NCBI RefSeq assembly: GCF_000745835.1
Contig: NZ_JQKB01000039.1
Coordinates: 1-48,915, forward strand
DNA length: 48,915 nt
Direction of reading: 5' to 3'
DNA from: Belnapia moabensis DSM 16746
GTDB lineage: Bacteria > Pseudomonadota > Alphaproteobacteria > Acetobacterales > Acetobacteraceae
Part shown: piece after piece, positions 25,598 to 38,912 of the stretch
Layout: each line of letters starts with the position of its first letter
How positions within the stretch are numbered: the stretch's first letter is position 1
The notes under the pieces: generated by a model
Told to the model about the DNA's origin: nothing
Seen by the model: only the letters and a program-made list of their open reading frames with translations
Database searches by the model: none
Translations under genes and position numbers: made by a program

Positions 25598-25658
25598 GGC
25601 TTCGAGTCCGAAACGTCACGGCTTGAGCGCGGGCGGCATCCGTGGGAGAGGTTCCGCG

Positions 25659-26564
25659 ATGCCGCCCTTCCATCTCGCCGCGGCGGGCCGGTGGCGTGGC
25701 CTGTTCGCCTGGTCGCCGAGCCCCGCGATTCGAGCCTCGCTCGGGCTGCATGCCGGCGGGCTGCTTGCCATGGCCGCCGAGCCGGGCTGCTGGCCGGAGA
25801 CGCTCTCGGCCATCGCCGCCAATCATCTGGCGCTTACCGGCTGCATGCATCCACGCTGCGGCCTGCTCGGGCCGGTGCTGACGCGCCTTGACGGGGCGGA
25901 GCCGCGCATCGCCCTCACCTTCGATGATGGGCCGGACCCGGAGGTAACGCCACGCGTCCTCGACCTGCTCGATGCCTGGGGGGCCAAGGCCAGCTTCTTC
26001 GTCATTGGCGAGCGGGCGGCGCGACACCCGGCCCTGCTGCGGGAGATGCTGCGGCGCGGCCATGGCGTCGAGAACCATACCCATCGCCACCCGCTCGGCT
26101 TCGCCGCTTTCGGCCCGGGAGCGATGCTGCGCGAGATCGAGACCGCGCAGGCCGCCATCGCCGATGCCTGCGGCCAAGCGCCGTGCCTCTTTCGCCCTCC
26201 GGCGGGGCTGCGCAGCCCGCTGCTCGACCCGGTGCTGTCGCTGACAGGGCTTTCCCTCGCGGCTTGGACGCGGCGCGGCTATGACGCGGTTTCGCCGCAT
26301 CCCGGGCGGGTGCTGGCCCGGCTGAGCCGCGGCCTCGGGCCGGGCGACGTGCTGCTGCTGCATGACGGGCGCTCGGCCCGGGGCTATCCGGGCCGGGCCG
26401 TGGTGCTCGAGGTGCTGCCGGCGCTGCTGGACCGGATCGCGGCTGCCGGCCTCAGCGCCGTCGCACTGCCGCCACCGGAGGAGGCGCCACGCGATGCCGC
26501 CGCCACAGCAGGGTCGGCAGGCGCGGCAGCATCCCGAGCACCAGCCGCGTATGCATCCAGGTGA
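25659..26564 (+). CDS. Polysaccharide deacetylase family protein (NodB domain)
   Basis: The ATG at 25659 gives 301 residues; a TTG at 25623 is the only longer choice. The NodB motifs are in order: ALTFDDGPDPEVTPRVL (catalytic Asp pair), ENHTHRHPLGF (metal histidines), FRPPAGLRSP and LLLHDGRS. No clear signal peptide is seen, so it may act in the cytoplasm. Substrates in the family are N-acetylated or formylated sugars. The last ~38 residues are alanine/proline-rich and overlap the converging glycosyltransferase gene by 113 nt. It adjoins the polyene cluster and might trim the sugar of its product; that is only a guess. Confidence 0.82.
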   Translation: MPPFHLAAAGRWRGLFAWSPSPAIRASLGLHAGGLLAMAAEPGCWPETLSAIAANHLALTGCMHPRCGLLGPVLTRLDGAEPRIALTFDDGPDPEVTPRVLDLLDAWGAKASFFVIGERAARHPALLREMLRRGHGVENHTHRHPLGFAAFGPGAMLREIETAQAAIADACGQAPCLFRPPAGLRSPLLDPVLSLTGLSLAAWTRRGYDAVSPHPGRVLARLSRGLGPGDVLLLHDGRSARGYPGRAVVLEVLPALLDRIAAAGLSAVALPPPEEAPRDAAATAGSAGAAASRAPAAYASR

Positions 26565-27237
26565 GCAGCAGGTTGTCCCGCGCATAGTGGAAATGCGAGA
26601 CACCGCCTTCTTCCTTCGACAGGTAGCGGCAGGGCACCGGCAGGTTCACCACCGGCAGGCCGTGCCAGCTGAGGCGGACGGCGGCCTCCGGGTCGAAGTC
26701 GAAGCGACGCATCCAGCGATGCCGCTCCATCACCGCGACCAGCGGCGCCACCGGATAGAGGCGGAAGCCGAAGAGGCAGTCGCCGATGCCGCCGCCCAGT
26801 GTCTGCACATTGGCAAGCCAGTTGGAGATGCGCCGCCCCTGCACACGGAGCGGAGGCGCCTCCGGCCCGAAGACCGGACGGCCGAGGATCATCGCCTCCG
26901 GCGCGGCGCGGGAGGCGGCCATCATCGCGCCGATGCGGTCGGCCGGGTGCTGGCCATCGGCATCCATGGTCAGCGCATGGGTGAAGCCGCGCCGCGCCGC
27001 CTCGCGGAGGCCGTGCAGCACCGCCCCGCCCTTGCCGCCGTTGCGCGGCAGGACCATCACCTCGAGGCCGGGATCGCGCTCGGCCTCGGCCAGCAGCAGG
27101 GCATCGGTGCCGTCCGTGCTGCCATCGACGACGACCCAGACCGGGGTCCAGGCGGCGCGGGCCTCGCGCACGGTCTGCAGCACGCGCGGCCCGGTGTTGT
27201 AGCTGGGGATCAGGACCAGCCGCGTCTCCCGCGGCAT
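26452..27237 (-). CDS. Family 2 glycosyltransferase of the polyene cluster
   Basis: This 261-residue cytosolic GT-A protein opens MPRETRLVLIPSYNTG, followed by VVVDGSTDGTD and the metal/nucleotide motif MDADGQHPAD (Asp92, Asp94), as in dolichyl-phosphate-mannose synthase-like enzymes. No transmembrane helix is obvious. APE clusters usually carry a glycosyltransferase/acyltransferase protein that decorates the polyene lipid; here the functions appear as separate genes. The ATG overlaps the stop of the upstream acyltransferase by one base. The 3' end overlaps the converging deacetylase gene by 113 nt. Confidence 0.85.
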   Translation of the reverse strand: MPRETRLVLIPSYNTGPRVLQTVREARAAWTPVWVVVDGSTDGTDALLLAEAERDPGLEVMVLPRNGGKGGAVLHGLREAARRGFTHALTMDADGQHPADRIGAMMAASRAAPEAMILGRPVFGPEAPPLRVQGRRISNWLANVQTLGGGIGDCLFGFRLYPVAPLVAVMERHRWMRRFDFDPEAAVRLSWHGLPVVNLPVPCRYLSKEEGGVSHFHYARDNLLLTWMHTRLVLGMLPRLPTLLWRRHRVAPPPVAAVRRR

Positions 27238-28028
27238 CAGCGCGAGGCCTGCACCGGCAATTCCTCGCGGAAATAGGCCTCGAGCCCGGTGACGAAGCCC
27301 TGCGGGTCCTCCCCTACCTCGAAGCGACGGCCGAGGCGGATGCGGTAGACCAGCGGCAGCTGCGGCCGGCGGAAGAGCGGCCAGCCCTTGCGCAGATATG
27401 GGCTGTCCGCCTCGATCAGCAGCGTCTGCACCGGGGCGCCGGCGGCCTTGGCCATCACGGCGAAGCTGCGGTGGAAGGCATCGATCGGCGGCGATGACGT
27501 GCGCGAGCCCTCGGGAAAGATGACGAGCTGGGCGCCGTCGCGGATGGCCTGGGCGGCACGGCGAATCATCGGCAGCGGCGCATCGTTGCGGATATAGGCC
27601 GCCAGCCGCACGCTGCCGCCATAGAAGATGTTGTCCCAGAGCGCCGCCTTGGTGATGCAGACGACGCGCGGCAGGCGGGAGGTGAGCAGCACCGCATCCA
27701 GCATCGTCGGGTGGTTGGGGGCGATGACCAGAGCACGCTCCCGGCTCAGCCGGTCGAGTTCGGAGAAGTCGATGCGCAGCACGCCGCTCAGCCGCATCAC
27801 GCCGATGAACCAGCGGAAGCCGAGCATGATCATGAATTGGCCGAAGGCCTCGCCGGAGCGCTTCGGCAGGACGCGATAGAGAAGTCCCGCCGGCATGCTC
27901 CACAAGAAGCAGCTCAGGCCGAACAGCATCACGCAAAAATAGAAAGCGACCGGATAGTAGATCGCGGCCAGCCAATCGAGAGGCGAGAGGCTCTCGCGCG
28001 GGTGCCGCAGACTCGTTGTCGGCTGCAT
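27237..28028 (-). CDS. PlsC-type lysophospholipid acyltransferase
   Basis: The ATG at 28026-28028 gives 263 residues. Hydrophobic N-terminal helices (residues ~18-50) precede the acyltransferase motifs NHPTMLD (HX4D, His106/Asp111), the FYGG region and FPEGSRTS. PlsC-like enzymes move an acyl chain onto a glycerol- or sugar-lipid at the inner membrane. The gene diverges from the methyltransferase operon and is coupled to the GT2 gene by a one-base overlap, suggesting both build the lipid or sugar part of the polyene product. A plausible promoter lies 26 nt upstream. Confidence 0.85.
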   Translation of the reverse strand: MQPTTSLRHPRESLSPLDWLAAIYYPVAFYFCVMLFGLSCFLWSMPAGLLYRVLPKRSGEAFGQFMIMLGFRWFIGVMRLSGVLRIDFSELDRLSRERALVIAPNHPTMLDAVLLTSRLPRVVCITKAALWDNIFYGGSVRLAAYIRNDAPLPMIRRAAQAIRDGAQLVIFPEGSRTSSPPIDAFHRSFAVMAKAAGAPVQTLLIEADSPYLRKGWPLFRRPQLPLVYRIRLGRRFEVGEDPQGFVTGLEAYFREELPVQASR

Positions 28029-28053
28029 CTTTTCCGGGCCTTCCTGTTCGCGT

Positions 28054-28083
28054 AATATAGTCTTGCGTGATGCTTGACGTCCA
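28054..28083 (-). promoter_or_regulatory. Candidate promoter for the PlsC-GT2 pair
   Basis: On the minus strand TGGACG (28078-28083, 4 of 6 to the -35 consensus) and TATATT (28054-28059, 5 of 6 to the -10 consensus) are separated by 18 nt. The -10 lies 25 nt before the acyltransferase ATG. It is one of the few AT-rich spots in the cluster, in the only divergent gap. Confidence 0.4.
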
Positions 28084-28098
28084 GGAGCCGGCCGGACC

Positions 28099-28914
28099 GT
28101 GACAGGGAAACAGGGGTTGCAGGCTGCGGTTCGGCCGCCTGCGGAGATTAGCACGCCAAGCGGCCGGGAGGACGAGGCCCGCCCCGTACCGCATCCGACT
28201 TTAACCGAATATTACCAGAACGCCGACGCCCGCGATGGCTTCGTCCGGCAATTGTTCGACCAGGCGGCGGGCTCCTACGACCGGATCAACACCGCCTTCT
28301 CCCTCGGCTCCGGAGCCTGGTACCGGCGGCGGGCGCTGTGGCAGGCCGGGTTGCGGCCGGGGCAGCGCATGCTGGATGTCGCCATCGGCACCGGGCTCGT
28401 GGCGCGGGAGGGGGTGCGCATCCTCGGCCGGCCGGAGGCGGTGACGGGCATCGACCTCAGCGCCGGGATGCTGGCCGAGGCGCGGCGGAGCCTCGCCATC
28501 CCGCTCATCCGCGGGCGGGCGGAGGCGCTGCCCTTCGCCGATGCGAGCTTCGACTTCCTCAGCATGGGCTATGCGCTGCGGCATGTGCCCGACCTCGTCA
28601 CCGCCTTCGCCGAGTACCGCCGGGTGCTGCGGCCGGGTGGCAGGCTGCTGCTGCTCGAGATCGGCCGGCCGGAAGGGCCGCTCGCCTACCGGGCGGCCCG
28701 CTTCTATCTCGGCCGGGTGGTGCCGGCGCTCAGCCGCTTGACCGGCGACGGGGCGCGGGCCGGGCTGATGATGCAGTACTACTGGGACACCATCGATGCC
28801 TGCGTGCCGCCCGCGACCATCCTCCAGGCACTGCGGACGGCCGGGCTCGACGGGACGCGTTGCGAGACGCAGCTCGGCCTGTTCCGCGCCTACATGGCCG
28901 GGAGTCCGGCATGA
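28099..28914 (+). CDS. UbiE-like class I methyltransferase
   Basis: This 271-residue protein resembles UbiE/COQ5: FVRQLFDQAAGSYDRINTAFSLGSGAWYRRRAL, motif I MLDVAIGTGL (residues 91-100), GIDLSAGML, and MGYALRHVPDLVTAF followed by LRPGGRLLLLEIGRP. The N-terminal ~35 residues from the GTG at 28099 are poorly conserved-looking, so the true start may be later. UbiE C-methylates a quinone ring, so an aromatic substrate is plausible. Placed at the head of the APE-like cluster it could methylate the aryl head group, as known APEs carry methyl groups. It overlaps the next methyltransferase gene by 4 nt. Confidence 0.82.
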   Translation: MTGKQGLQAAVRPPAEISTPSGREDEARPVPHPTLTEYYQNADARDGFVRQLFDQAAGSYDRINTAFSLGSGAWYRRRALWQAGLRPGQRMLDVAIGTGLVAREGVRILGRPEAVTGIDLSAGMLAEARRSLAIPLIRGRAEALPFADASFDFLSMGYALRHVPDLVTAFAEYRRVLRPGGRLLLLEIGRPEGPLAYRAARFYLGRVVPALSRLTGDGARAGLMMQYYWDTIDACVPPATILQALRTAGLDGTRCETQLGLFRAYMAGSPA

Positions 28915-29552
28915 GCGCGGCGCTGGCGCGTGAGGTGGCGGGGCTCTATGCCGGCGCCTCGCGCTTCGCCCAGGGCTATGTTGGTGGCAAATTGCGTACC
29001 GATCCGGCGAGCCGGGCGGTGTTGGAGCGGGCGGCGGCCAGGCCATTCGGGATGGTGGCCGATCTCGGCTGCGGCCGGGGGCAGCTCGGTCTCGCCCTGC
29101 TGATGGCGGGGCGGGCGCGGGAGGTGATCGGCCTCGACCGCGATGCGCGGAAGATCGCCGAGGCCCAGGCGGCGGCGGCAGGGCTGCCGGCGCGCTTCAC
29201 GGCGGGTGACCTCACCGCGGACAGCGTGCCGGATTGTGACACCGCGCTGCTGATCGACGTGCTCTACCAGCTCCCCGCCGAGGTACAGCGGCCGGTGCTG
29301 GCGGCGGTGGCGGCGCGGGCGCGGCAGCGCGTGCTGATCCGTGCCTTCGACCCGGCGCGCGGCTGGCGCAGCGCCTTCGGCCTCGCCATGGAGCGGGCTG
29401 GACGCCTCGTCCGGGGCGACGGCAATGCCATCGCCCCGCTGCCGATGGAAGAGCTGGCGGCGCCCTTTCGGGCGGCGGGCTTCGCCGTCGCCGTCACGCC
29501 CTGCTGGGAAGGGACACCCCTGCCGAACGTGCTGCTGGTTGCGGAGCGGTAA
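28911..29552 (+). CDS. Second class I SAM-dependent methyltransferase
   Basis: The ATG at 28911 overlaps the preceding stop (ATGA) and gives 213 residues; the same frame is open far upstream, which hides this start. Motif I is VADLGCGRGQLG (~residues 49-60), followed by GLDRDARKI, AGDLT and TALLIDVLYQLP. The last motif and fold resemble enzymes described in APE and flexirubin clusters. Together with its neighbour it suggests two methylations, for example a ring C-methyl and a phenol O-methyl, as in arcuflavin- or xanthomonadin-like pigments. Which one does which cannot be told from sequence. Confidence 0.8.
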   Translation: MSAALAREVAGLYAGASRFAQGYVGGKLRTDPASRAVLERAAARPFGMVADLGCGRGQLGLALLMAGRAREVIGLDRDARKIAEAQAAAAGLPARFTAGDLTADSVPDCDTALLIDVLYQLPAEVQRPVLAAVAARARQRVLIRAFDPARGWRSAFGLAMERAGRLVRGDGNAIAPLPMEELAAPFRAAGFAVAVTPCWEGTPLPNVLLVAER

Positions 29553-29688
29553 GGCAGGCGGCCTCGCTTCGAATGTTCCGCGAACTGTGTCGCCCGGTTC
29601 CTTGCCTCGGCGGGCAACCGTCTGATATCGAGAGTCAGGTTGAGCAACACCCGTTAACACCAGCGCCACAACAAGGTTTCACGGCTCC
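29553..29688 (+). promoter_or_regulatory. Leader region of the polyene synthase operon
   Basis: This is the only sizeable gap (136 nt) inside the rightward cluster, so it likely contains the promoter of the ACP-to-KR block. A TTGCCT at 29602 and TGATAT at 29623 have poor spacing (15 nt), so no promoter is firmly called. AAGG about 12 nt before the ACP ATG may be the ribosome site. Confidence 0.3.
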
Positions 29689-29988
29689 ATGCCTGACGGC
29701 ACCATGACTCCCACTTTCACTGCGCCCGGCCTTACCGCGCAGGAACTCGAAGTGGCGCGGCTGATCGTGAGCGCGCTGTCGCTCGAGGTCGCGCCCGAAG
29801 CGATCGAGCCGGAGGCCCCGCTCTTCAACGAGGGGCTTGGCCTCGACTCGATCGATGCGCTGGAGATGGCCCTGGCCGTCTCCAAGGCCTATGACGTGAA
29901 GCTCCGCTCCGATGACGAGCGCAACCACCGCATCTTCGCCTCCCTGCGAAGCCTCACGGCGCATATCGAAAAGCACCGGACGCGTTGA
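29689..29988 (+). CDS. Acyl carrier protein of the polyene cluster
   Basis: This 99-residue protein has the phosphopantetheine site GLGLDSIDALEM (Ser54) and the helices of an ACP, but it is longer and less acidic than AcpP. The type, with an 'LF.EGLGLDSID' block and a 'SDDERNHRIFASLRSL' end, matches APE-cluster carriers (ApeE/ApeF class). It carries the growing polyene chain as a thioester. The alternative start at 29704 would remove five residues. Described APE clusters generally have two ACPs; only this one is found here. Confidence 0.9.
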   Translation: MPDGTMTPTFTAPGLTAQELEVARLIVSALSLEVAPEAIEPEAPLFNEGLGLDSIDALEMALAVSKAYDVKLRSDDERNHRIFASLRSLTAHIEKHRTR

Positions 29989-29992
29989 GCGC

Positions 29993-30448
29993 ATGCCGCG
30001 CGGACGCAGCCTCCTCCGGTTGCTGCTGCTGATCGCCGCCTCGGTCGTGCTGGCGGTGCTGCTGGTTGGCAACCCGGTGGCGGCGGCGCTCGGGAATGCG
30101 GCGGTGGCGCTGCGCTTCGGCCTGACGCTGCTGCCGGGGCGGGAGCCGCTGATCGCCCATTACAGCCGCTTCGACTGGGCGGGGCCGCCGGAGGGCGGGT
30201 ATACGCGGGCGCTGACGCTCGCCTGGGCGCTGCTGCTCGGCGGCTTCGCGCTGGCTCATGGCGCCCTCGCCGCCACCGGGCGGAATGACGTGCCGCTCGC
30301 CATCGTCGAGCCGCTGGTCTGCGCCTTGTTCTTCCTCGGTGAGCATGGGCTGCGCAACCGCCGCTTCCCGCAGCACGGGCGGGCGACGCCGCTGCGGACG
30401 CTGCGGGCGATCGGGCTCGCGCATGGGCTAGTCCGGCATGCGGGCTGA
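29993..30448 (+). CDS. COG4648-type membrane protein of the polyene cluster
   Basis: The ATG at 29993 gives 151 residues with hydrophobic segments near residues 7-30, 65-85 and 95-112. The reading AHYSRFDWAGPPEGGYTRALTLAWALLL matches the COG4648 proteins that always sit between the ACP genes and the AMP-ligase in aryl polyene loci (ApeG position). Its biochemical role is not established; assembly or membrane tethering of the synthase is possible. It lies 4 nt after the ACP stop and overlaps the ligase gene by 11 nt. Confidence 0.8.
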   Translation: MPRGRSLLRLLLLIAASVVLAVLLVGNPVAAALGNAAVALRFGLTLLPGREPLIAHYSRFDWAGPPEGGYTRALTLAWALLLGGFALAHGALAATGRNDVPLAIVEPLVCALFFLGEHGLRNRRFPQHGRATPLRTLRAIGLAHGLVRHAG

Positions 30449-31763
30449 GGCAGCGTTGCCGCTCGTCGACCGCGAGCTTGCGGAGGTGATCTGCCATCGC
30501 CCGGCCGGACCGGTGACGGTCGGCCGCCTGCTCGGCGAGGCGCGGGCGCTCGCCGCACGGCTGCCGGCGACGGGGCACCCGATCAATCTCTGCGCCGACC
30601 GCTACCGCATGCTGCTCGGCTTCGTCGCCGCGCTGATGCGAGGGCACCCGACGCTGCTCAATGCCGATGCCTCGCCGCACCGGCTGCGGGCGCTGGCCGA
30701 GGCCTATCTGGGGACCTATCTGCTGGCGGACAAGCCGGTCGCCTCCGATATGCCGCTGGTCCTCGTCGAGGATGGCGCGGCGGAGGAGTGGACGGGGCCT
30801 GTGCCGATGCTGCCCGCCCGGCAGCTGGCCGCCATCGCCTTCACCTCCGGCTCCACCGGCCAGCCGACGGCCCATCTCAAGCCCTGGGATGCGCTGGTCG
30901 CCGCGGCGCTGGCCGCCGCCGAGCGCTTCGCCCTCCGCCCCGGCGACGGGCCGGCGAGCAGTGTGCTGGCGACCGTGCCGCCGCAGCATATGTACGGCTT
31001 CGAGACCACAATCATGCTGCCGCTGCAGGCCGCGCTCGCCTGCCATGCGGGCGAGGCCTTCTTCCCCTCCGACGTGTTGGATGCGCTGGACGGGCTGCCC
31101 GAGCGCCGGCTGCTGGTAACGACGCCGCTGCATCTCCGCGCCCTGCTGGCCGAGCGGCGCCGGCCGGCGCCGCTCGCCGCCGTCATCTCGGCGACCGCGC
31201 CACTGGCCATGAGCATGGCCGAGGCGGTAGAGCGCGACTGGGGCGCGCCGATGCTCGAGATCTACGGCGCCAGCGAGGCCGGCTCCATGGCCAGCCGCCG
31301 CACCGCGCTGGAGCCGGATTGGTTGCCTTACTCCGGCATCCGCATGGGGCAAAGCGAGGTCCATGTGCCCGGCCTCGGCGTCGTGCCGCTGGCCGATGCG
31401 GTGGAGCCGGCGCCGGGCGGCCGCTTCCGCCTGCTCGGGCGGCGGGCCGATCTGGTGAAGCTCGGCGGCCGGCGGGCCTCGCTCGCCGAGCTCAACCGCG
31501 TGCTGGCGGAGGTGGCGGGCGTCGAGGACGGCGTCTTCGTTGCGCCGGAGGATATCGAGCGCAATCCGGCCGCCCGGCTCAGCGCCTATGTGGTCGCGCC
31601 GGGGCGGAGCGCGGAGGAGATCCTGGCCGCGCTCCGGCTGCGGCTGGAACCGGTCTTCCTGCCCCGGCCGCTGGTGCTGGTGCCCGCCCTGCCCCGCAAC
31701 GGCCTCGGCAAGCTGACCCGTGCGGCGCTGGACGGGCTGCGCCTGGCCATGGCGGCGCCGTGA
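30438..31763 (+). CDS. AMP-dependent acyl/aryl ligase (ApeH-like)
   Basis: This 441-residue adenylate-forming enzyme has the P-loop FTSGSTGQPTAHLKPW (residues 135-150), the A5 motif IYGASEAGSMASR, GRRADLVKLGGRR and the C-terminal catalytic lysine region PRNGLGKLTRAAL. It is shorter than acetyl-CoA synthetases (~550-650) but normal for APE-type ligases. In characterised APE loci this enzyme activates the aromatic starter, 4-hydroxybenzoate, and loads it on the ACP; the same is inferred here. The gene overlaps both neighbours (11 nt upstream, 4 nt downstream). Confidence 0.85.
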   Translation: MRAEAALPLVDRELAEVICHRPAGPVTVGRLLGEARALAARLPATGHPINLCADRYRMLLGFVAALMRGHPTLLNADASPHRLRALAEAYLGTYLLADKPVASDMPLVLVEDGAAEEWTGPVPMLPARQLAAIAFTSGSTGQPTAHLKPWDALVAAALAAAERFALRPGDGPASSVLATVPPQHMYGFETTIMLPLQAALACHAGEAFFPSDVLDALDGLPERRLLVTTPLHLRALLAERRRPAPLAAVISATAPLAMSMAEAVERDWGAPMLEIYGASEAGSMASRRTALEPDWLPYSGIRMGQSEVHVPGLGVVPLADAVEPAPGGRFRLLGRRADLVKLGGRRASLAELNRVLAEVAGVEDGVFVAPEDIERNPAARLSAYVVAPGRSAEEILAALRLRLEPVFLPRPLVLVPALPRNGLGKLTRAALDGLRLAMAAP

Positions 31764-32041
31764 CCACTCGCTTCGAGGTGCCAGCGGACCATCCGGCCTT
31801 CCCCGGGCATTTCCCTGGCCGGCCGATCCTGCCCGGCGTCGTGCTGCTCGATGCGGTGCTGCAGGCGGCCGGGCTCGGCCAGGCGCATCTGCTGCGGGCG
31901 AAATTCATCGCGCCCGTCCTGCCGGGGGATGCGGTCGAGATCAGCCTCGCCCCGCGCGCCGGCGGACGGGTCGGCTTCACCTGCGTGAGCGGGGGCAGGA
32001 CGGTGCTCTCCGGGGAGTTGGCATGCGCACCGGCGCCCTAG
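31760..32041 (+). CDS. Short hotdog-fold 3-hydroxyacyl-ACP dehydratase (ApeI-like)
   Basis: This 93-residue frame starts at the GTG at 31760, overlapping the ligase stop. It contains HPAFPGHFPGRPILPGVVLLDAVL, the FabZ/FabA-like motif with the active-site His17 and a Asp/Glu-equivalent region in the central helix. ApeI-type proteins dehydrate hydroxyacyl-ACP intermediates to extend the conjugated chain. Its small size is normal for this group. It overlaps the following acyltransferase gene by 19 nt, the largest overlap on this strand in the block. Confidence 0.82.
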   Translation: MTTRFEVPADHPAFPGHFPGRPILPGVVLLDAVLQAAGLGQAHLLRAKFIAPVLPGDAVEISLAPRAGGRVGFTCVSGGRTVLSGELACAPAP

Positions 32042-32934
32042 AATGGGTCGATGCGCCAGAGCGGGGCAGCGTGCGCCTCGCCCGCTTCATGGTCTGGCTG
32101 GTGCATACCATCGGCTGGTGGCCGGGCCATGCGCTGCTCTACCCGATCGCCTTCTACTTCATGCTCTTCTCGCCCCGGCAGCGGCGGGTGGCGCGGCGCT
32201 TTCTCGGCCGGGCGCTGGGGCGCAAGGCGGGGTTCGGCGATGTCTTCCGGCTCTATTTCGCTTTCGCCTCCACCATCCTCGACCGCGCTTTCCTGGTGAC
32301 AGGGCGCACCGCGCACTACCACATCGAGGTGCACGGGCTGGAGGCGCTCAAGGCCCGCATCGCCGAGGGCCGTGGCTGCCTGCTGCTGGGTGCGCATATG
32401 GGCAGCTTCGAGGCGTTGCGGGCCGTCGCCGATGCCGGCAGCCCGGTCGAGGTCGCCGTCCTCATGCATGAGGCGAATGCGGCGCGGCTGAAGGCGGTGT
32501 TCGACGCGCTCGGCGGGGCGAAGCGGCAGGAAGTGGTGATCCCCCTCGGCACCACCGATGCCATGCTCCGCGCGCGCGAGGTGCTGGAGCGCGGCGGGCT
32601 GGTCGGGCTGCTGGCCGACCGGGCGCCGCGGGGCGAGCGGATGCAGCCCGTCCCCTTCCTTGGGCAGGAGGCGCCGCTGCCGACCGGGCCGCATGTGCTG
32701 GCCGCCGTGCTCGGCGCGCCGGTGATGCTCGCCTTCGGCCTCTGGCGCGGACCGAGGCATTACGAGGTGAGGTTCGAGCCCTTCGCTGATGCCACGCCGC
32801 CCGGCCGCGCCGGACGGCAGGCGCTGGTTGAGGAGCGCGTCCGCCGCTACGCCGCAAGGATCGAGGCGGTCTGTCGGCGGCACCCGTACAACTGGTTCAA
32901 CTTCTATGATTTCTGGCAGGAGTGCGGGCGTTGA
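32023..32934 (+). CDS. LpxL/HtrB-like lipid acyltransferase
   Basis: The ATG at 32023, with a GGGGAG site upstream, gives 303 residues. An N-terminal membrane helix (residues ~20-48) precedes the HX4E motif GAHMGSFEA (His125, Glu130), as in the lipid A secondary acyltransferases, then LLADRAPRGER and a C-terminal NWFNFYDFW, a feature of the APE-associated branch. In other APE loci this domain is fused to a glycosyltransferase domain (ApeJ type, as recalled); here it stands alone, with a separate GT2 gene at 26452. It probably acylates the polyene lipid. Confidence 0.82.
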   Translation: MRTGALEWVDAPERGSVRLARFMVWLVHTIGWWPGHALLYPIAFYFMLFSPRQRRVARRFLGRALGRKAGFGDVFRLYFAFASTILDRAFLVTGRTAHYHIEVHGLEALKARIAEGRGCLLLGAHMGSFEALRAVADAGSPVEVAVLMHEANAARLKAVFDALGGAKRQEVVIPLGTTDAMLRAREVLERGGLVGLLADRAPRGERMQPVPFLGQEAPLPTGPHVLAAVLGAPVMLAFGLWRGPRHYEVRFEPFADATPPGRAGRQALVEERVRRYAARIEAVCRRHPYNWFNFYDFWQECGR

Positions 32935-33491
32935 GATGGGCCCTGCTGCTGCTCCTCGCGCTTGCGATGCCGGCGCGGGCGGAGGATCCGGCACTGCTGC
33001 GCCTGATGCAGGGCTTCGCCGCCCAGCCGCGCTCCGAGGCCCGCTTCACTGAGGATAAGGTCATCCCCGAGCTCGACCTGCCATTGCCGAGCCAAGGCCT
33101 GCTGCGCTGGCAGGCGCCGGACCGGCTGGAGAAGCACACCACCTCCCCCATCGACGAGATGCTGCGGGTCGAGGGAGGGCGGCTGCTCTATGAGCGGCCC
33201 GACCGGGGCATCCGCCGCGAATTCGGCCTGGAAGAGCAGCCAGAGATGCGGGCACTGGTCGAGGCGGTGCGCGGCACGCTGGCCGGCGACCTGGCCACGC
33301 TGCACCGCTACTACGAGATCGGCTTCACCCCGGAAGGTGCCGGGACGCCCTGGCGGATGGTGCTGAGCCCACTGTCCATCCGCCTGCGGGCGGCGGTGCA
33401 GCGCATCACCGTCAGCGGCCGCGGCGCGCAGGTGCGGAGCATCGAGACCGAAGGCGGCGGCGGCGTGACGCGTATGCAGATCAGCCCGTGA
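32922..33491 (+). CDS. LolA-like periplasmic carrier protein
   Basis: This 189-residue protein starts at GTG 32922 (TTG 32931 is possible) with a signal peptide MRALRWALLLLLALAMPARA cut before Glu-Asp. The mature part follows the LolA-like outer-membrane carrier pattern of APE loci: a G.LRWQAPDRLEKHT strand, then a GGRLLYERPDRGI strand. It probably ferries the hydrophobic polyene lipid across the periplasm, handing over from the MMPL exporter encoded next. It overlaps the genes on both sides. Confidence 0.82.
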   Translation: MRALRWALLLLLALAMPARAEDPALLRLMQGFAAQPRSEARFTEDKVIPELDLPLPSQGLLRWQAPDRLEKHTTSPIDEMLRVEGGRLLYERPDRGIRREFGLEEQPEMRALVEAVRGTLAGDLATLHRYYEIGFTPEGAGTPWRMVLSPLSIRLRAAVQRITVSGRGAQVRSIETEGGGGVTRMQISP

Positions 33492-35788
33492 GGCGCCTCC
33501 TCGCGGCGCTGCTGCTGCTGGCGGCGCTGGGCGGGGGGCTTGGGGCGCTGGTCGGCGTCAGGGCCGACCTCGCCGAGTTCCTGCCGACCGGCCGCAGCCC
33601 GGCCAGCACCTTCCTGTTCCGCGAGTTGCAGAGTGGCGCGGCGACGACGCTCCTGCTCGCCGGGATGGAGGGCGCCGAGCCGGCGGAGCTTGCGAGGGTT
33701 TCACGGGAAACAGCGGCGGGATTGCGCGCCTCCGGCCTGTTCGATTTCGTCGGCGACGGGACGGTGACACTCGGCGAGGGCGAGCAGGCGCTGCTTTTCC
33801 GCTACCGCTACCTGCTCTCGCCCGAGACGCGGCCCGAAGCCTTCACCGCCGCCGCTCTGCGGCCGAAGCTGGAGGCGCTGCTTGAGGGGCTGCGCAGCGC
33901 CGCCTCGCCGCTGCTGGCGCGCTTCGGCTTCACCGACCCGACCGGGGCCTTCCTCGGCCTGGCCCACGCCTTCCTCGCCGAGAGCCGGCTGGAGGTGCGG
34001 GATGGCGCCTGGTTCGCCGCCGAGGGACCGCCGCGCGCCCTCCTGATTGCCCGCGCCCGCAGCGGGGCGGGGCTGGATGCGGAGGCCCAGAGGCAGGCGA
34101 TCGCCGCCTTCCGCGCCGCTTTCGAGGCCGCGAAGCCTGGCCCGGCGCAGCTGCTGCTGAGCGGGCCGGGCGTCTTCGCCAGCGAGGCAGCGGCATCGAT
34201 CCGGGCCGATGTGCGGCTCATCACCCTGGCCTCGGGTGGGCTGCTCGCGGCCTTCCTGCTCTGGCGCTACCGCTCGCTCATGCTGCTCGGCCTGGTCGCG
34301 GTGCCGCTGGCGGCGGGGACGATCGCCGGCTTCGCGGTGACGGCGCTGGTCTTCGGCGGGAAGGTGCAGGGCATCGCCTTCGGCTTCGGGATGACGATGC
34401 TGGGCGTGACCGTTGATTATCCGATCCTGCTGGCGAGCCTGCGCCGGCCGGAGGAGGGGTTGGCGGCGGCGGCTCGGCGCATCTGGCCGACGCTCCGCCT
34501 TGCCGCCGCCTCGGCCGCGACGGGGCTGGCGGCGATGCTCGGCTCCGGCTTCCCCGGCCTCGTCCAGCTCGGCGTCTTCGCCGGGACGGGGCTGCTGGTG
34601 GCCGCGGCCACGACGCGCTGGGTGTTGCCCTGGCTGCTGCCAGAGGCGCGGATCGCGGCACGGCCGCTGCCCGGGCCCATCCGGGCCGGGCTCGGCATGC
34701 TGCGGGGGCGGAGGCGGCTGGCGGGCGGGGTGGTGCTCGGCGCCGGGCTGCTGCTGCTGGCGCTTGGCGGGCCGGCCTGGCAGCGCGACCTGGCGGCGCT
34801 GAGCCCGGTGCCGCGCGAGGCGCAGGCCCTCGACGGCGAGCTGCGCCGCCAACTCGGTGCGCCGGATGTGCGCGTGCTCTTCGCCCTCGGCCCGGGGACG
34901 GAGGCGGAGGTGCTGGCGGCGTCCGAGCGGCTGGCCGAGGCGGTGGCGCCGCTGCTCGGCCAAGCGCTGCAAGGGATCGACCTGCCGAGCCGCTACCTGC
35001 CGAGCGAGGCGACGCAACGCACCCGGCAGGCCGCCCTCCCTGCCGCCGGGATGGCGCAGGCCGCGCTTGCCGAGGCCATGGCGGGCCTGCCCTTCCGCCC
35101 GACCGCCTTTGCCCCATTTCTCGCCGCTCTCGGCGAGAGCCGTGCCCTGGCGCCACTCACCGCCGCTGCCCTTGCCGCCGAGGCGCCGACCCTCGCGGCC
35201 CGGCTCTCGCCGCTGCTCTTCCGGCGGGGCGAAGCGGCGCAGGGCGTTGCCCTCGCCCAAGGGGTGCGGGATCCGGCCGCCCTGGCCGCGATGGCGCAGC
35301 GGCTCGGTGACCCGCGCATCCTCTTCATCGATGTGAAGGCGGAGACGGAGGGGCTGCTCGATGCCTATAGCCGTGCGACGCTGCTCTGGGCGCTGGCCGG
35401 GGCCGGGCTGGTGCTCGGCCTGCTCGCGCTCGGCCTCGGCGGGGTAAGACGGACCTTCCGCGTGGCCGGGCCGATCGGTGGGGCGCTGCTCGTCACCCTG
35501 GCGGCGCTCACGGCGCTCGGCGAGGCGCTGACGCTCTTCCACCTCGCCTCGCTGCTGTTGCTCGCGGGGCTGGCGATTGACTATTCTCTTTTCCTCGCCG
35601 GTGACGCGACCGACGACACGATGGGAGCCATCTTGAACTGCGCCGTCTCCACCCTGCTCACCTTCGGGCTGCTCGCCTTCTGTGGAACGCCGGTGCTGCA
35701 CGGGATTGGGCTGACGGTCTCGATCGGCGTGGCAAGCGCCTTCCTCCTCGCCTGCGCCATGGCTCCGAGGCCCCTTCTCCATGCCTGA
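33488..35788 (+). CDS. MMPL/RND-family exporter of the polyene cluster
   Basis: This 766-residue inner-membrane protein starts at a GTG at 33488. It has the MMPL layout: one N-terminal helix, a periplasmic domain (~25-235), five to six helices (~238-420), a second helix (~415-432) and periplasmic domain (~435-625), and a second block of helices to the end. Helix-4-like motifs GFGMTMLGVTVDYPILL and LLLAGLAIDYSLFLAGD mark the two halves. Homologues in APE loci are thought to flip or export the finished polyene lipid. The gene ends 8 nt inside the ketosynthase gene. Confidence 0.87.
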   Translation: MRRLLAALLLLAALGGGLGALVGVRADLAEFLPTGRSPASTFLFRELQSGAATTLLLAGMEGAEPAELARVSRETAAGLRASGLFDFVGDGTVTLGEGEQALLFRYRYLLSPETRPEAFTAAALRPKLEALLEGLRSAASPLLARFGFTDPTGAFLGLAHAFLAESRLEVRDGAWFAAEGPPRALLIARARSGAGLDAEAQRQAIAAFRAAFEAAKPGPAQLLLSGPGVFASEAAASIRADVRLITLASGGLLAAFLLWRYRSLMLLGLVAVPLAAGTIAGFAVTALVFGGKVQGIAFGFGMTMLGVTVDYPILLASLRRPEEGLAAAARRIWPTLRLAAASAATGLAAMLGSGFPGLVQLGVFAGTGLLVAAATTRWVLPWLLPEARIAARPLPGPIRAGLGMLRGRRRLAGGVVLGAGLLLLALGGPAWQRDLAALSPVPREAQALDGELRRQLGAPDVRVLFALGPGTEAEVLAASERLAEAVAPLLGQALQGIDLPSRYLPSEATQRTRQAALPAAGMAQAALAEAMAGLPFRPTAFAPFLAALGESRALAPLTAAALAAEAPTLAARLSPLLFRRGEAAQGVALAQGVRDPAALAAMAQRLGDPRILFIDVKAETEGLLDAYSRATLLWALAGAGLVLGLLALGLGGVRRTFRVAGPIGGALLVTLAALTALGEALTLFHLASLLLLAGLAIDYSLFLAGDATDDTMGAILNCAVSTLLTFGLLAFCGTPVLHGIGLTVSIGVASAFLLACAMAPRPLLHA

Positions 35789-36989
35789 CCGCTCCCCCCT
35801 CTGGCCGCTGAGCCTCGCGGCCGCCACCACCGTCACCGCCCTCGGCGCCGGCATCGCGCCGCTGCGGCGGGCGCTGCATGCGCGGGAGGGCGGGCTGCGG
35901 CCGAGCGAATTCCCTGGCGGGCCGGAGGATATCTGGGTCGGACAGGTGCCGGGGGTGGAGGCGGTGGAGCTGCCGCCCGGCCTCGCCCGCTTCGCCTGCC
36001 GCAACAACCGCCTGGCGGAGATGGCGCTCGCCAGCGATGGCTTCGCCGAGGCGGTCGCCGCCGCCGTGGCGCGGCATGGGCCGGAGCGCGTTGCCGTCGT
36101 CCTCGGCACCAGCACGGCGGGGATCGAGGAGACGGAGCAGGCCTACAGCCGCCGAGATGGCGCGGGCGCCCTGCCGGCCAGCTTCGACTATGCCGGGTCG
36201 CATGACCTGCAAAGCCTGCCAGCCTATGTGCGGGCGCGGCTCGGCCTGCGCGGGCCGGCCTTCGCCGTCTCCACCGCCTGCACCTCTGGTGCGCGGTCGA
36301 TGCTGGAGGCGGCCTCGCTGATCGCTTCGGGGCTTGCCGATGCGGTGGTGGCGGGGGGCGTCGACAGCCTCTGCCGCCTGACGCTGCACGGCTTCGCCTC
36401 GCTCGAACTGCTCAGCCGCGGGCGGCCGACGCGGCCCTGCGCCGCCGACCGCGACGGCATCTCCATCGGCGAGGCGGCCGGCCTCGTCCTGTTGACCCGG
36501 CCGGAGCATGCGCCGCCCGGCGCACCGCTGCTGCTCGGCGCCGGCGCCAGCAGCGACGGGCACCACATGTCCTCGCCGCACCCGGAGGGTCTCGGCGCCG
36601 TCAGCGCCATGCGGGCGGCGCTGGACGCGGCGGGGTTGACGCCGGGGGAGGTCGACTATGTCAACCTCCATGGAACCGGCACCCGCGCCAATGACGCCAT
36701 GGAAGACCGCGCCGTCCACCACATGTTCGGCGATGACGTGCCCTGCAGCTCGACCAAAGGCTGGACGGGGCATGCGCTTGGCGCCTCGGGGGCGGTGGAG
36801 GCGGTCATCGCCATGCTCTGCCTCGAGGATGGGCTGGTGCCCGGCTGCCTCGGCGTCGCCGAGCGCGACCCTGAATTCCGCAGCGCCATCGCCATCGCCA
36901 ATCAGGCGCGGCCGGTGCGGCGCATCGCCAGCAACTCCTTCGGCTTCGGGGGCAGCAATTGCTGCCTGCTGATCGGCCAGGCCGCGTGA
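35781..36989 (+). CDS. Beta-ketoacyl synthase (ApeO/FabF-like), active
   Basis: This 402-residue thiolase-fold enzyme has the full triad: Cys167 in VSTACTSGAR, His297 in NLHGTGTRAND and His331 in STKGWTGHALGAS, with Lys326. Glycine-rich SNSFGFGGSN closes the fold. In APE systems a ketosynthase works as a heterodimer with a chain-length-factor protein to add malonyl units; the next gene encodes such a partner. Described APE loci encode a second complete ketosynthase, and none is seen here. It overlaps the MMPL gene by 8 nt and the next gene by 4 nt. Confidence 0.9.
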   Translation: MPDRSPLWPLSLAAATTVTALGAGIAPLRRALHAREGGLRPSEFPGGPEDIWVGQVPGVEAVELPPGLARFACRNNRLAEMALASDGFAEAVAAAVARHGPERVAVVLGTSTAGIEETEQAYSRRDGAGALPASFDYAGSHDLQSLPAYVRARLGLRGPAFAVSTACTSGARSMLEAASLIASGLADAVVAGGVDSLCRLTLHGFASLELLSRGRPTRPCAADRDGISIGEAAGLVLLTRPEHAPPGAPLLLGAGASSDGHHMSSPHPEGLGAVSAMRAALDAAGLTPGEVDYVNLHGTGTRANDAMEDRAVHHMFGDDVPCSSTKGWTGHALGASGAVEAVIAMLCLEDGLVPGCLGVAERDPEFRSAIAIANQARPVRRIASNSFGFGGSNCCLLIGQAA

Positions 36990-37777
36990 AGTGCTGGATA
37001 GCGGGGGTCGCGGTCCTCGGCGCCGGCCTGCCGGGCTGGACGGCGGGCGAGGCGGCCCTGGCCGGCACCGCGCCCTGGTGCATGGGCGACGTGGTGCCGC
37101 CGCCCCCTGCCCTGCTGCCGCCGACCGAGCGGCGCCGGACCAGCCCGGCGGTGCGGCTGGCGCTCGCCGTCGCGGCGGAGGCGACGGCGGGGATCGAGGA
37201 CCGGGCGGCGCTTGAGACCGTCTTCGCTAGCAGCAATGGCGATGGCGCGGTGGTCGGCGGCATCCTGGAGGCGCTGCACGACCCGGCCGGCATCGCGCTC
37301 TCGCCGACGCAGTTCCACAACTCGGTGCATAACTCCGCCGCCGGCTACTGGCATATCGCGGTCGGCTCGACGGCGCCCTCGATCAGCCTCGGCGGGCATG
37401 ACGGCAGCTTCGCCACGGGGCTGCTGGCGGCGGTGATGGCCGTTGCAACGCGCGGAACCTCGGTGCTGCTGTGCGCCTATGACCTGCCGCTGCCGGTGCC
37501 GCTCGCTGCGGTGCGACCGACTGGACCCGGCTTCGCCACTGCGCTGGTGCTGCGGCCGGAGCCTGTCGCGGGAGCAATGGCGCGGCTCTCGCTCCGGCAT
37601 GTGGCGGAGCCGGCACCCGCCGCGCCGCCAAGCGATGCGCTCGACGCACTCGCCGAGGGCAACCCCGCCGCCCGCGCCCTGCCGCTGCTGCGGGCGCTGG
37701 CGGCGCGGCGCCTGGCGCGGATCGGCCTGCCGCTCACTGCCGACACCCATCTCGCCCTGGAGCTGGACCCGTGCTGA
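36986..37777 (+). CDS. Chain-length-factor-like ketosynthase partner (ApeC-like)
   Basis: The GTG at 36986 overlaps the ketosynthase stop and gives 263 residues. It keeps the N-terminal half of a ketosynthase: FASSNGDGAVVGGILEAL and the diagnostic SPTQFHNSVHNSAAGYW block (~residues 106-122), where the active-site cysteine position is occupied by non-nucleophilic residues. Such truncated, inactive proteins pair with ApeO-type enzymes and set chain length. The C-terminal part is alanine-rich and variable. It overlaps the dehydratase gene by 7 nt. Confidence 0.87.
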   Translation: MKCWIAGVAVLGAGLPGWTAGEAALAGTAPWCMGDVVPPPPALLPPTERRRTSPAVRLALAVAAEATAGIEDRAALETVFASSNGDGAVVGGILEALHDPAGIALSPTQFHNSVHNSAAGYWHIAVGSTAPSISLGGHDGSFATGLLAAVMAVATRGTSVLLCAYDLPLPVPLAAVRPTGPGFATALVLRPEPVAGAMARLSLRHVAEPAPAAPPSDALDALAEGNPAARALPLLRALAARRLARIGLPLTADTHLALELDPC

Positions 37778-38190
37778 ACCGCGAGGCGATCGTCGCCCTC
37801 GTGCCGCATCAAGGGGCGATGTGCCTGCTCGACCGCGCGCTGGAATGGGATGCCAGGCGCATCCTCTGCGAGGCGGAGAGCCATGCCGCGCCCGGCAACC
37901 CGCTGCGGCGGGACGGGATGCTGCCGGCGGTCTGCGGCCTCGAATTCGCCCTCCAGGCCATGGCGCTGCACGGCGCGCTCTCGGCCGGCGGGGTTCCGCA
38001 GCGGGCCGGCTTCGTCAGCAGCCTGCGCGATGTGAGGATGACAACCGGGCGGCTCGACACCGTCGCCGGGCCGCTCCGGATCGAGGCGGTGGCGCTGGTC
38101 GCCGAAGAGTCCGGCTTCATCTACCGCTTCGACATCGCCGGCGAGGGGCGGAGCCTGCTCGCCGGACAGGCGGCGGTGATCCTGCCATGA
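37771..38190 (+). CDS. Hotdog-fold 3-hydroxyacyl-ACP dehydratase (ApeP-like)
   Basis: This 139-residue protein starts at GTG 37771 and has the VPHQGAMCLLDRALEWD opening (His13) and a central GLEFALQAMALHGAL helix, as in FabA/FabZ-like proteins of the ApeP group. With the ApeI-like protein it would provide the two dehydratases of an APE synthase. The two proteins share little sequence, so they are probably not redundant; in characterised systems they form a complex. It overlaps the ketoreductase gene by 4 nt. Confidence 0.82.
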   Translation: MLNREAIVALVPHQGAMCLLDRALEWDARRILCEAESHAAPGNPLRRDGMLPAVCGLEFALQAMALHGALSAGGVPQRAGFVSSLRDVRMTTGRLDTVAGPLRIEAVALVAEESGFIYRFDIAGEGRSLLAGQAAVILP

Positions 38191-38912
38191 ACCAGCGGCG
38201 CGCCCTCGTCACCGGTGGAGCGAGCCCGCTCGGCGCCGCCATCTCCCGTCGCCTCGCGGGCGAGGGGCATGAGGTGCTGATCCACGCCCATGCCGGGCTC
38301 GGCCGCGCCGAGGCGCTGGCGGCGGAGCTTGGCGGCGCGGGCCATCGTGCCAGCGCCTTTGCCGCCGACCTCACCGACATGCCGGCGACGGCCGTGGCGG
38401 TGGAGGCGCTGCTGGCGGTTGGGCCGATCCAGATCCTCATCCACAATGCCGGCACCCATGACGACGCGCCGCTCGCCGGCATGAGCGAGCAGCAATGGCG
38501 CAGCGTCGTCGATGTCTCGCTGAACGGCTTCTACGCCGCGCTGCGCCCGCTGATCCTGCCGATGATCGGCACGCGCTGGGGGCGGATCATCGCCATCTCC
38601 TCGATCAGCGGGATCATGGGCAATCGCGGGCAGGCCAACTACGCTGCAGCCAAGGCGGGGCTGATCGGGGCGGTGAAAACGCTCTCGCTCGAATACGCCT
38701 CGCGCGGCGTGACCGCGAATGCGGTAGCACCTGGCATCATCGAGAGTCCGGCCGTGGCGGCGGCCATGCCGCGCGAGCGCATCGCCCAGATCGTGCCGGC
38801 GAAGCGCGCCGGGCGGCCGGAGGAAGTGGCCGATCTCGTCGGCTTCCTTGCATCGGACCAGGCCGGCTACATCACCGGTCAGGCGATCGCCATCTCGGGC
38901 GGGCTTGGTTAA
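38187..38912 (+). CDS. 3-oxoacyl-ACP reductase, FabG-like (ApeQ-like)
   Basis: The ATG at 38187 overlaps the preceding stop and gives 241 residues; the frame is open far upstream, so the overlap decides the start. SDR signatures are intact: TGGASPLGAAIS (residues 9-20), HNAGTHDD, catalytic Ser138/139 in ISSISG, and Tyr152/Lys156 in NYAAAKAGL. The C-terminal GITGQAIAISGG-like segment is typical of FabG. It reduces 3-keto-acyl-ACP before dehydration in each extension cycle and is the last gene of the operon. Confidence 0.9.
   Translation: MNQRRALVTGGASPLGAAISRRLAGEGHEVLIHAHAGLGRAEALAAELGGAGHRASAFAADLTDMPATAVAVEALLAVGPIQILIHNAGTHDDAPLAGMSEQQWRSVVDVSLNGFYAALRPLILPMIGTRWGRIIAISSISGIMGNRGQANYAAAKAGLIGAVKTLSLEYASRGVTANAVAPGIIESPAVAAAMPRERIAQIVPAKRAGRPEEVADLVGFLASDQAGYITGQAIAISGGLG

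Follow-up and report, generated by a model that had tools for sequence, protein, structure and literature searches.

The clusters described for aryl polyenes (APEs) fall into two types that bear on the locus considered here. In the type known from Escherichia coli CFT073, Xenorhabdus and Acinetobacter, the ketosynthase (KS) ApeO and the chain-length factor (CLF) ApeC, whose structure is available as 6QSP, alone produced full-length polyene in vitro, with the additional ketosynthase ApeR raising throughput (PMC8358021); E. coli still makes the main APE lipid when apeR is mutated, retains partial pigment when apeF is, and makes free APE acids when apeK is (PMC8253772). The second type comprises the xanthomonadin and arcuflavin clusters. 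The xanthomonadin-like cluster of Lysobacter enzymogenes OH11 combines a single KS and an adjacent CLF-like protein (ORF17/ORF16) with one acyl carrier protein (ACP), two dehydratases and a ketoreductase, lists no thioesterase, and loses its pigment when the KS, ACP, ketoreductase or CLF is mutated (PMC3691225). The published arc gene list of Azoarcus sp. BH72 likewise has one ACP, a KS and a CLF resembling the N-terminal part of a KS, two dehydratases, a reductase, a ligase, a glycosyltransferase, two acyltransferases, a LolA protein and an exporter, as well as a methyltransferase, a polysaccharide deacetylase and a halogenase, and contains no ApeR, thioesterase or DUF3261 protein (PMC3949708). 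We analyzed a window of 48,915 nucleotides, the entire contig C37 of the draft genome of Belnapia moabensis DSM 16746 (6.73 Mb, 282 contigs, 98.95% complete, 4.24% contaminated), in which an original prediction made from the sequence had placed an APE-like type II polyketide synthase (PKS) cluster with an unusual, reduced gene set at 26452-38912. We found this gene set to be the usual form of the known second APE type, which also occurs in Xanthomonas and Lysobacter and in many bacteria related to Belnapia moabensis; by its sequence the window holds, in all likelihood, a complete cluster of the xanthomonadin/arcuflavin type, whose product is very probably a yellow antioxidant pigment bound to the membrane.

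Membership of this type is indicated by the adjacent KS and CLF genes, a KS clade supported at 99/99, the single ACP, and the fact that neither a second KS of the cluster nor a thioesterase was found. In PDB searches the window KS best matched 6qsp_A (257.7 bits) and 7f28_B (248.8 bits), the next match being a FabF at 181, while the only matches of the CLF at an E-value of 0.001 were the two ApeC chains, 7f28_A and 6qsp_B; we take 7F28 to be an ApeO/ApeC entry too, and the two structures to represent the Xenorhabdus and Acinetobacter proteins. With its KS and CLF being relatives of ApeO and ApeC, the prediction of an APE type II PKS is supported. The KS gene is immediately followed by that for the CLF, with an overlap of 4 bases, whereas the CLF gene of the E. 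coli type lies about 9 kb upstream. Residues C167, H297 and H331 of the KS are invariant in a five-sequence alignment, as are H17/D31 of the ApeI-like dehydratase, H13/E58 of the ApeP-like dehydratase and S54 of the ACP in alignments comprising 5 to 7 sequences, E. coli and Pseudoalteromonas among them; these are the residues expected to be catalytic in the respective folds. As to the conserved glutamine of the Lysobacter CLF (Q166), no glutamine is invariant in our CLF alignment (A1), which is composed of sequences other than that of Lysobacter. With 43% identity to both ApeE-type ACPs, against 20% and 30% to those of the ApeF type, the window ACP is by sequence of the ApeE and not the ApeF kind. 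The ketoreductase had no PDB match at an E-value of 1e-60, and the ApeP-like dehydratase searched alone returned noise besides a single weak structural match, its match with a profile that includes gamma sequences being partly so by construction.

To place the locus among its relatives, genomes were searched with the ApeO model NF006618, which scored above its cut-off in 105 of 297 genomes of the family and 96 of 396 of the phylum, both samples having been drawn evenly from larger groups. From these, 60 family and 60 phylum places were fetched, picked for genus spread and contig room, and scored with hidden Markov models (HMMs) built from proteins of the window, Roseomonas, Azospirillum, Pseudoalteromonas and E. 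coli. A locus was considered evaluable if six or more of the seven core proteins were matched and the sequence extended 7 kb upstream and 3.5 kb downstream from the KS, these thresholds having been set after the scores were seen; the 46 loci counted as bearing ApeR score at least 524 bits with its model, and three with 207-236 bits (L155, L166, L167) were counted as having none. Among the evaluable loci of Acetobacteraceae, 47 of 51 are without ApeR, thioesterase and second ACP, and the other four have all three; the nine non-evaluable loci show none of them. Exactly one ACP is present in 46 of the 47 reduced loci (none in the remaining one) and two in each of the four full loci, and all six congeners fetched (L038-L043) have the gene content of the window. 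In the phylum sample 38 of 52 evaluable loci have both ApeR and the thioesterase, 13 have neither and one has the thioesterase only, with ApeR also in one of eight non-evaluable loci; a second ACP was seen in 19 of the 38, many of the stretches stopping near its expected place. The CLF directly follows the KS in 56/56 ApeR-less family loci and 17/21 ApeR-less phylum loci, and in none of the ApeR-bearing loci of the family (0/4) or phylum (0/39, the stretch fetched being devoid of a CLF in 33 of them). Since the same content recurs in most evaluable family loci and in the xanthomonadin and arcuflavin clusters, the description of the set as unusual and reduced, which was measured against the E. 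coli/Xenorhabdus type only, does not stand. As side observations, nine loci (L051, L054, L090, L237-L242) show in the fetched stretch, on contigs some of which are short, a KS-CLF pair alone or with dehydratase or ketoreductase only, and are possibly split clusters like the two arc loci of Azoarcus, and a Variovorax locus (L101) has a KS without a CLF match.

The phylogeny of the KS agrees with this division. In a quick tree of 94 KS rows the window falls in a 38-row clade without any ApeR-bearing locus (Shimodaira-Hasegawa-like approximate likelihood ratio test, SH-aLRT, 99), the other clade having 50 rows (93), 46 with ApeR and 4 without, and L148 standing apart. In a careful tree of 53 rows the window groups with Xanthomonas (X. 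arboricola), Lysobacter, Stenotrophomonas, Variovorax, Azospirillum, Caballeronia and Roseomonas haemaphysalidis in the 31-row clade mentioned above, three rows of which have ApeR and the inner order of which is weak (94/65); the other clade of 16 rows (100/100) contains E. coli, Pseudoalteromonas, Cupriavidus and two family loci, with three rows lacking ApeR. FabF, FabF1XL and three ApeR sequences fall outside all ApeO rows (100/99 in the careful tree, 99 in the quick one), in line with the expectation that the KS would not group with fatty-acid ketosynthases, albeit with a warning from the tool of long outgroup branches. When named genomes were scanned with the CLF alignment, the best 80 of 586 confirmed places were headed by Stenotrophomonas, Lysobacter, Xanthomonas and Luteimonas, with Variovorax lower. 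A less strict criterion, 5 of 6 core hits, made 47 of the 80 evaluable; among these, 44 are without ApeR, thioesterase and second ACP and three have ApeR, the remaining 33 of the 80 showing none. A cluster of the E. coli/Xenorhabdus type decayed by recent loss of ApeR, ApeF, ApeK and ApeN would equally leave these genes unfound, and ApeR-less loci do occur in the other KS clade (L142, L144, L145, L155); but the window KS belongs to the opposite deep clade with the CLF adjoining it, the content is repeated in 6/6 congeners and 47/51 evaluable family loci, and the ten open reading frames of the main operon overlap end to end without a break. Tree, synteny and recurrence together led us to discard decay as an explanation, and we regard it as highly improbable.

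The whole genome was searched for the parts that the original prediction had found wanting, and a second ACP of the APE type, an ApeR-like KS and the ApeK thioesterase were indeed not found. Four family loci that carry ApeR, ApeF and ApeK together (L077, L080, L084, L094) served as positives. Six places matched as KS: a 2695-residue open frame resembling a type I PKS, FabF, a pair beside an AcpXL-like ACP, the window ApeO and a weak match of 42 positions, the weak match on contig C10 (L036) scoring 14 bits with the ApeO model. The best score with the ApeR model was 243 bits, that of FabF, far below the range of the ApeR-bearing loci. Eight places matched as ACP, namely three in long frames on C40 (like nonribosomal peptide synthetases by frame length), the neighbour of FabF, the AcpXL-like protein, the type I PKS frame, the window ACP and one at C49:31540; among the places fetched, those outside C40, the best score with the ApeF model, 34 bits, was that of the FabF neighbour. 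The C49 protein was rejected as a second APE ACP, as it scores with neither ACP model and its neighbours, labelled by eye, are HAD/FkbH-like, aminoacyl-ligase-like and hydrolase genes. With E. coli ApeK as the query, the best match in the genome was at E 9e-4 in a 509-residue frame and there was none in one congener, compared with 3e-28 to 1e-33 in the four positives. The DUF3261 lipoprotein ApeN had no match in the window, nor in the genome, where no control genome gave a signal either and the local HMM matched only 2 of the 4 full-type family loci. On contig C11 (116083-118673; L003) lies a set of genes for an AcpXL-like ACP, a FabZ-like dehydratase, two ketosynthases and an alcohol dehydrogenase (labels by eye), which we take to be the long-chain lipid A fatty acid set; given these neighbours, the KS pair (C11:116962/117960) was rejected as APE genes. 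The cluster in the window might itself be read as a second fatty-acid pathway, for a very-long-chain acyl chain of lipid A and not a polyene, since such a pathway likewise has a KS, a dehydratase, a ketoreductase, an ACP and an acyltransferase of the LpxL type. However, the lookalike on C11 is a separate set, the window has a ligase, a CLF and LolA/MMPL proteins, its nearest structures are those of ApeO/ApeC, and its KS does not group with FabF or FabF1XL, so that we attach next to no probability to this reading.

Gene calls from open reading frames and codon-position GC content, together with Pfam and NCBIfam scans, recovered all the genes listed in the original prediction and extended the cluster outward from 26452 to a polysaccharide deacetylase gene starting at 25623 (Table 1). 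The ten genes at 29993-38912 each overlap the neighbour by 4 to 19 bases and none is broken. The lysophospholipid acyltransferase (LPLAT) and family 2 glycosyltransferase (GT2) genes are transcribed divergently from the main operon, and the deacetylase gene points towards the GT2 gene. The "split acyltransferase/GT2" of the original prediction is correct in that both genes are there, but the GT2 domain occupies only the last part of the 580-residue minus-strand frame and the LPLAT has a frame of its own, so that these are two separate genes and not a frameshifted or broken one. The fused ApeJ of E. coli also has two counterparts here, the GT2 and an LpxL-type acyltransferase of the main operon. 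A promoter scan between the divergent operons gave one weak site, with 0.4 expected by chance.

Table 1. Predicted genes of the aryl polyene cluster in the B. moabensis window
Feature	Position	Strand	Evidence
Polysaccharide deacetylase, ArcN-like, cluster edge	25623-26564	+	PF01522 1.4e-29; 55% to clustered homologues of Roseomonas haemaphysalidis and Azospirillum ramasamyi
Glycosyltransferase family 2, GT2 half of E. coli ApeJ, ArcE-like	26452-27237	-	PF00535; 68% / 66% to L099/L100
Lysophospholipid acyltransferase, ApeD/ArcD-like, start codon inferred	27237-28028	-	PF01553 1.6e-12; 32% to E. coli ApeD, 53% to L099 (identities on 27237-28013)
UbiE-like S-adenosylmethionine (SAM) methyltransferase, start 28099 or 28117	28099-28914	+	PF01209 5.9e-30
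Second SAM methyltransferase	28911-29552	+	PF13649 1.4e-8
Single ACP, ApeE type	29689-29988	+	NF006617 120.6 bits, cut-off 70
ApeG-like small membrane protein, start inferred	29993-30448	+	51% to L099 neighbour, 28% to E. coli ApeG (on 29990-30448); no Pfam/NCBIfam match
AMP-forming aryl acid:ACP ligase, ApeH/ArcT-like	30438-31763	+	PF00501 5.1e-16; 30% to E. coli ApeH
Hotdog dehydratase, ApeI-like, 93 residues	31760-32041	+	FabA domain 6.1e-9; profile including gamma sequences matches 6qsr_A
LpxL-type acyltransferase, acyltransferase half of E. coli ApeJ, ArcR-like	32023-32934	+	PF03279 2.6e-12
LolA-like carrier	32922-33491	+	PF19574 5.8e-14
MMPL/RND exporter, ApeM-like	33488-35788	+	PF03176 5.1e-12
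Ketosynthase ApeO	35781-36989	+	NF006618 494 bits, cut-off 407; best PDB matches 6qsp_A, 7f28_B; trees
Chain-length factor ApeC	36986-37777	+	Ketoacyl-synt_2; PDB matches at E 0.001 only 7f28_A and 6qsp_B; alignment A1
Hotdog dehydratase, ApeP-like	37771-38190	+	No Pfam match; 6qsr_B E 0.67 alone, 7.8e-32 with gamma-containing profile
Ketoreductase ApeQ	38187-38912	+	NF004200 FabG 314 bits, cut-off 273; 39% to E. coli ApeQ
Flavin-dependent halogenase, ArcA-like, probable tailoring enzyme	42396-43697	-	WFWLIP motif; PDB relatives; homologues in family loci

The window has counterparts of ApeC, D, E, G, H, I, J, L, M, O, P and Q of the E. coli type, that of ApeJ being divided between two genes. 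From these relationships we infer a pathway in which the ApeH-like ligase would adenylate an aryl acid, probably a hydroxybenzoate, and load it on the single ApeE-type ACP, whereupon the ApeO-ApeC heterodimer would add malonyl units, carried most likely by the same ACP or the fatty-acid AcpP, from the first round to the last. Each keto group would be reduced by ApeQ and dehydrated by ApeI/ApeP with no enoyl reduction, resulting in a polyene. That one KS/CLF pair performs initiation and all elongation had been proposed in the original prediction, and this is supported as a conjecture and by one in vitro study of ApeO-ApeC (PMC8358021), contrary in vitro work being cited elsewhere (PMC8253772). 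The LpxL-type acyltransferase and the LPLAT may then transfer the polyene directly from the ACP to a glycolipid made by the GT2, in which case an ApeK-type thioesterase would be dispensable; attachment by acyltransferase in place of thioesterase is suggested by the LpxL-type family and is the least supported step of the scheme. The deacetylase, to judge from its co-occurrence, may trim the glycolipid, LolA and the MMPL protein would transport the product to the outer membrane, and the methyltransferases and halogenase would decorate the ring. The closest published gene list is that of Azoarcus arc, whose product is an arcuflavin-like hybrid (PMC3949708), and a polyene esterified here as well to a dialkylresorcinol encoded at another place in the genome, as in arcuflavin or flexirubin, is accordingly conceivable though improbable. 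Azoarcus differs in that its arc genes lie at two unlinked loci, with XanB2 (arcB), MipA (arcC) and an antiporter, and in its separate dar locus (PMC3949708), where the window has one locus with two methyltransferases, in a genome without a XanB2 match; OH11 differs in its XanB2-like ORF5 and in having no halogenase or methyltransferase (PMC3691225).

The halogenase, 3.5 kb downstream of the main operon, is predicted to be probably a member of the cluster because homologues scoring above 300 bits occur within the fetched stretches of 34 of the 47 reduced family loci. Its GxGxxG and WxWxIP motifs, both marks of halogenases, and its nearest structures fit this view: 11 of its 14 PDB matches are named halogenase, the rest being ChlB4, CmlS ("Alkylhalidase") and 3nix ("Flavoprotein/dehydrogenase"). 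WxWxIP also occurs in more distant flavin proteins of L102, L105 and L129. The deacetylase (above 100 bits) is found in 16 of the 47 reduced loci and in none of the four full-type ones. Among the best 80 of the 586 named loci, the window-type deacetylase is found in three (L200, L227, L228), the methyltransferases in none and the halogenase (above 300 bits) in seven. The published Acetobacteraceae "arylpolyene" gene clusters, from the same family, include a KS-linked adenylate-forming protein, a dehydrogenase, a probable halogenase and transporters (PMC8776678). A survey of 2021 reports such clusters in 19 of the 43 acidophilic and 28 of the 96 acetous strains but no purified product (PMC8776678), so that the remark in the original prediction that APE pigments are little described in the family holds in part. 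Between the ketoreductase and halogenase genes lie a bactofilin and two other genes, and a DUF6212 protein and an 873-residue protein with GT2 and glycosyltransferase group 1 domains are encoded at 43765-48428, adjoining the halogenase.

Several points weigh against assignment to the xanthomonadin/arcuflavin type. Three loci in the window's KS clade carry ApeR (L222, L224, L228), two of them (L222, L224) with the thioesterase, and ApeR is lacking from four loci in the clade of the E. coli type (L142, L144, L145, of group f54, and L155); the trees comprised sequences other than the L. enzymogenes and Azoarcus BH72 proteins. MipA had no match in the window, and the Azoarcus antiporter was not searched for. 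The E. coli apeR mutant also accumulates late intermediates, all other genes seemed to be needed for full assembly or attachment, and in vitro work cited in the same report has ApeR required for initiation in Xenorhabdus (PMC8253772). Furthermore, the published xanthomonadin (PMC3691225) and arcuflavin (PMC3949708) clusters carry a XanB2-type gene, and the XanB2-type family (PF21168) had no match in 9 of 11 family genomes tested, including 7/7 of the genus. We weigh this last absence as a difference within the type, since XanB2 is not general even in the window's KS clade. In favour of the assignment, all four Lysobacteraceae (f49) genomes tested, which belong to that clade, have such a gene 8-13 kb from the KS. 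We do not claim an all-or-none rule for ApeR and the thioesterase: the two are called alike in 102 of the 103 loci evaluable in family and phylum, but L148 and L228 deviate and the three ApeR-bearing loci lie in the window's clade. The latter show a mixed architecture and come from Peristeroidobacter and two metagenome-assembled genomes, a contig filed under Planktophila being perhaps misbinned; the four ApeR-less loci of the other clade have a distant CLF and neither ApeR nor thioesterase, and are apparently separate losses. The parts not found in B. moabensis are also missing from the working Lysobacter pathway, and what they contribute in the E. coli type is in part a matter of dispute.

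The source of the aryl starter is less readily accounted for. UbiC and the Rv2949c-like family (PF01947) each had no match in any of the 11 family genomes tested, including all seven of the genus; in the same searches UbiC was detected in the E. coli control and 2 of 20 genomes, PF21168 in 9 of 20, and PF01947 in three controls and 1 of 20, though divergent enzymes could escape. The only ammonia-lyase match (PF00221, on contig C2) lies between urocanase-like and imidazolonepropionase-like frames and, taken by eye as a histidase, was rejected as a starter source. The origin of hydroxybenzoate in the genus is puzzling, as the three families gave no match and yet the pigment, and ubiquinone if it is made, should need it. 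The same gap in UbiC and XanB2 has been stated for Hyphomicrobium, with p-aminobenzoate mentioned as an alternative (PMC12423496). We tentatively entertain, as a rather unlikely possibility, that the starter in Belnapia comes from a so far unnamed route or is another aryl acid, these genomes having retained the polyene machinery along with its ligase, halogenase and methyltransferases.

Taken together, the compact set with one KS and one ACP is the common APE machine of the sampled Acetobacteraceae and of a deep KS clade shared with Lysobacteraceae, and, this being so, the E. coli model is unfit for calling such clusters incomplete. The B. moabensis cluster is an intact-looking, ordinary example of the already known second APE type, and it is the source of its starter that lends it interest. 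If the starter does come from an unnamed route, the colour of the cells would report on the hydroxybenzoate synthase that this group appears to be missing. The cluster also offers a visible pigment with which the origin of hydroxybenzoate could be asked in Alphaproteobacteria without UbiC and XanB2.

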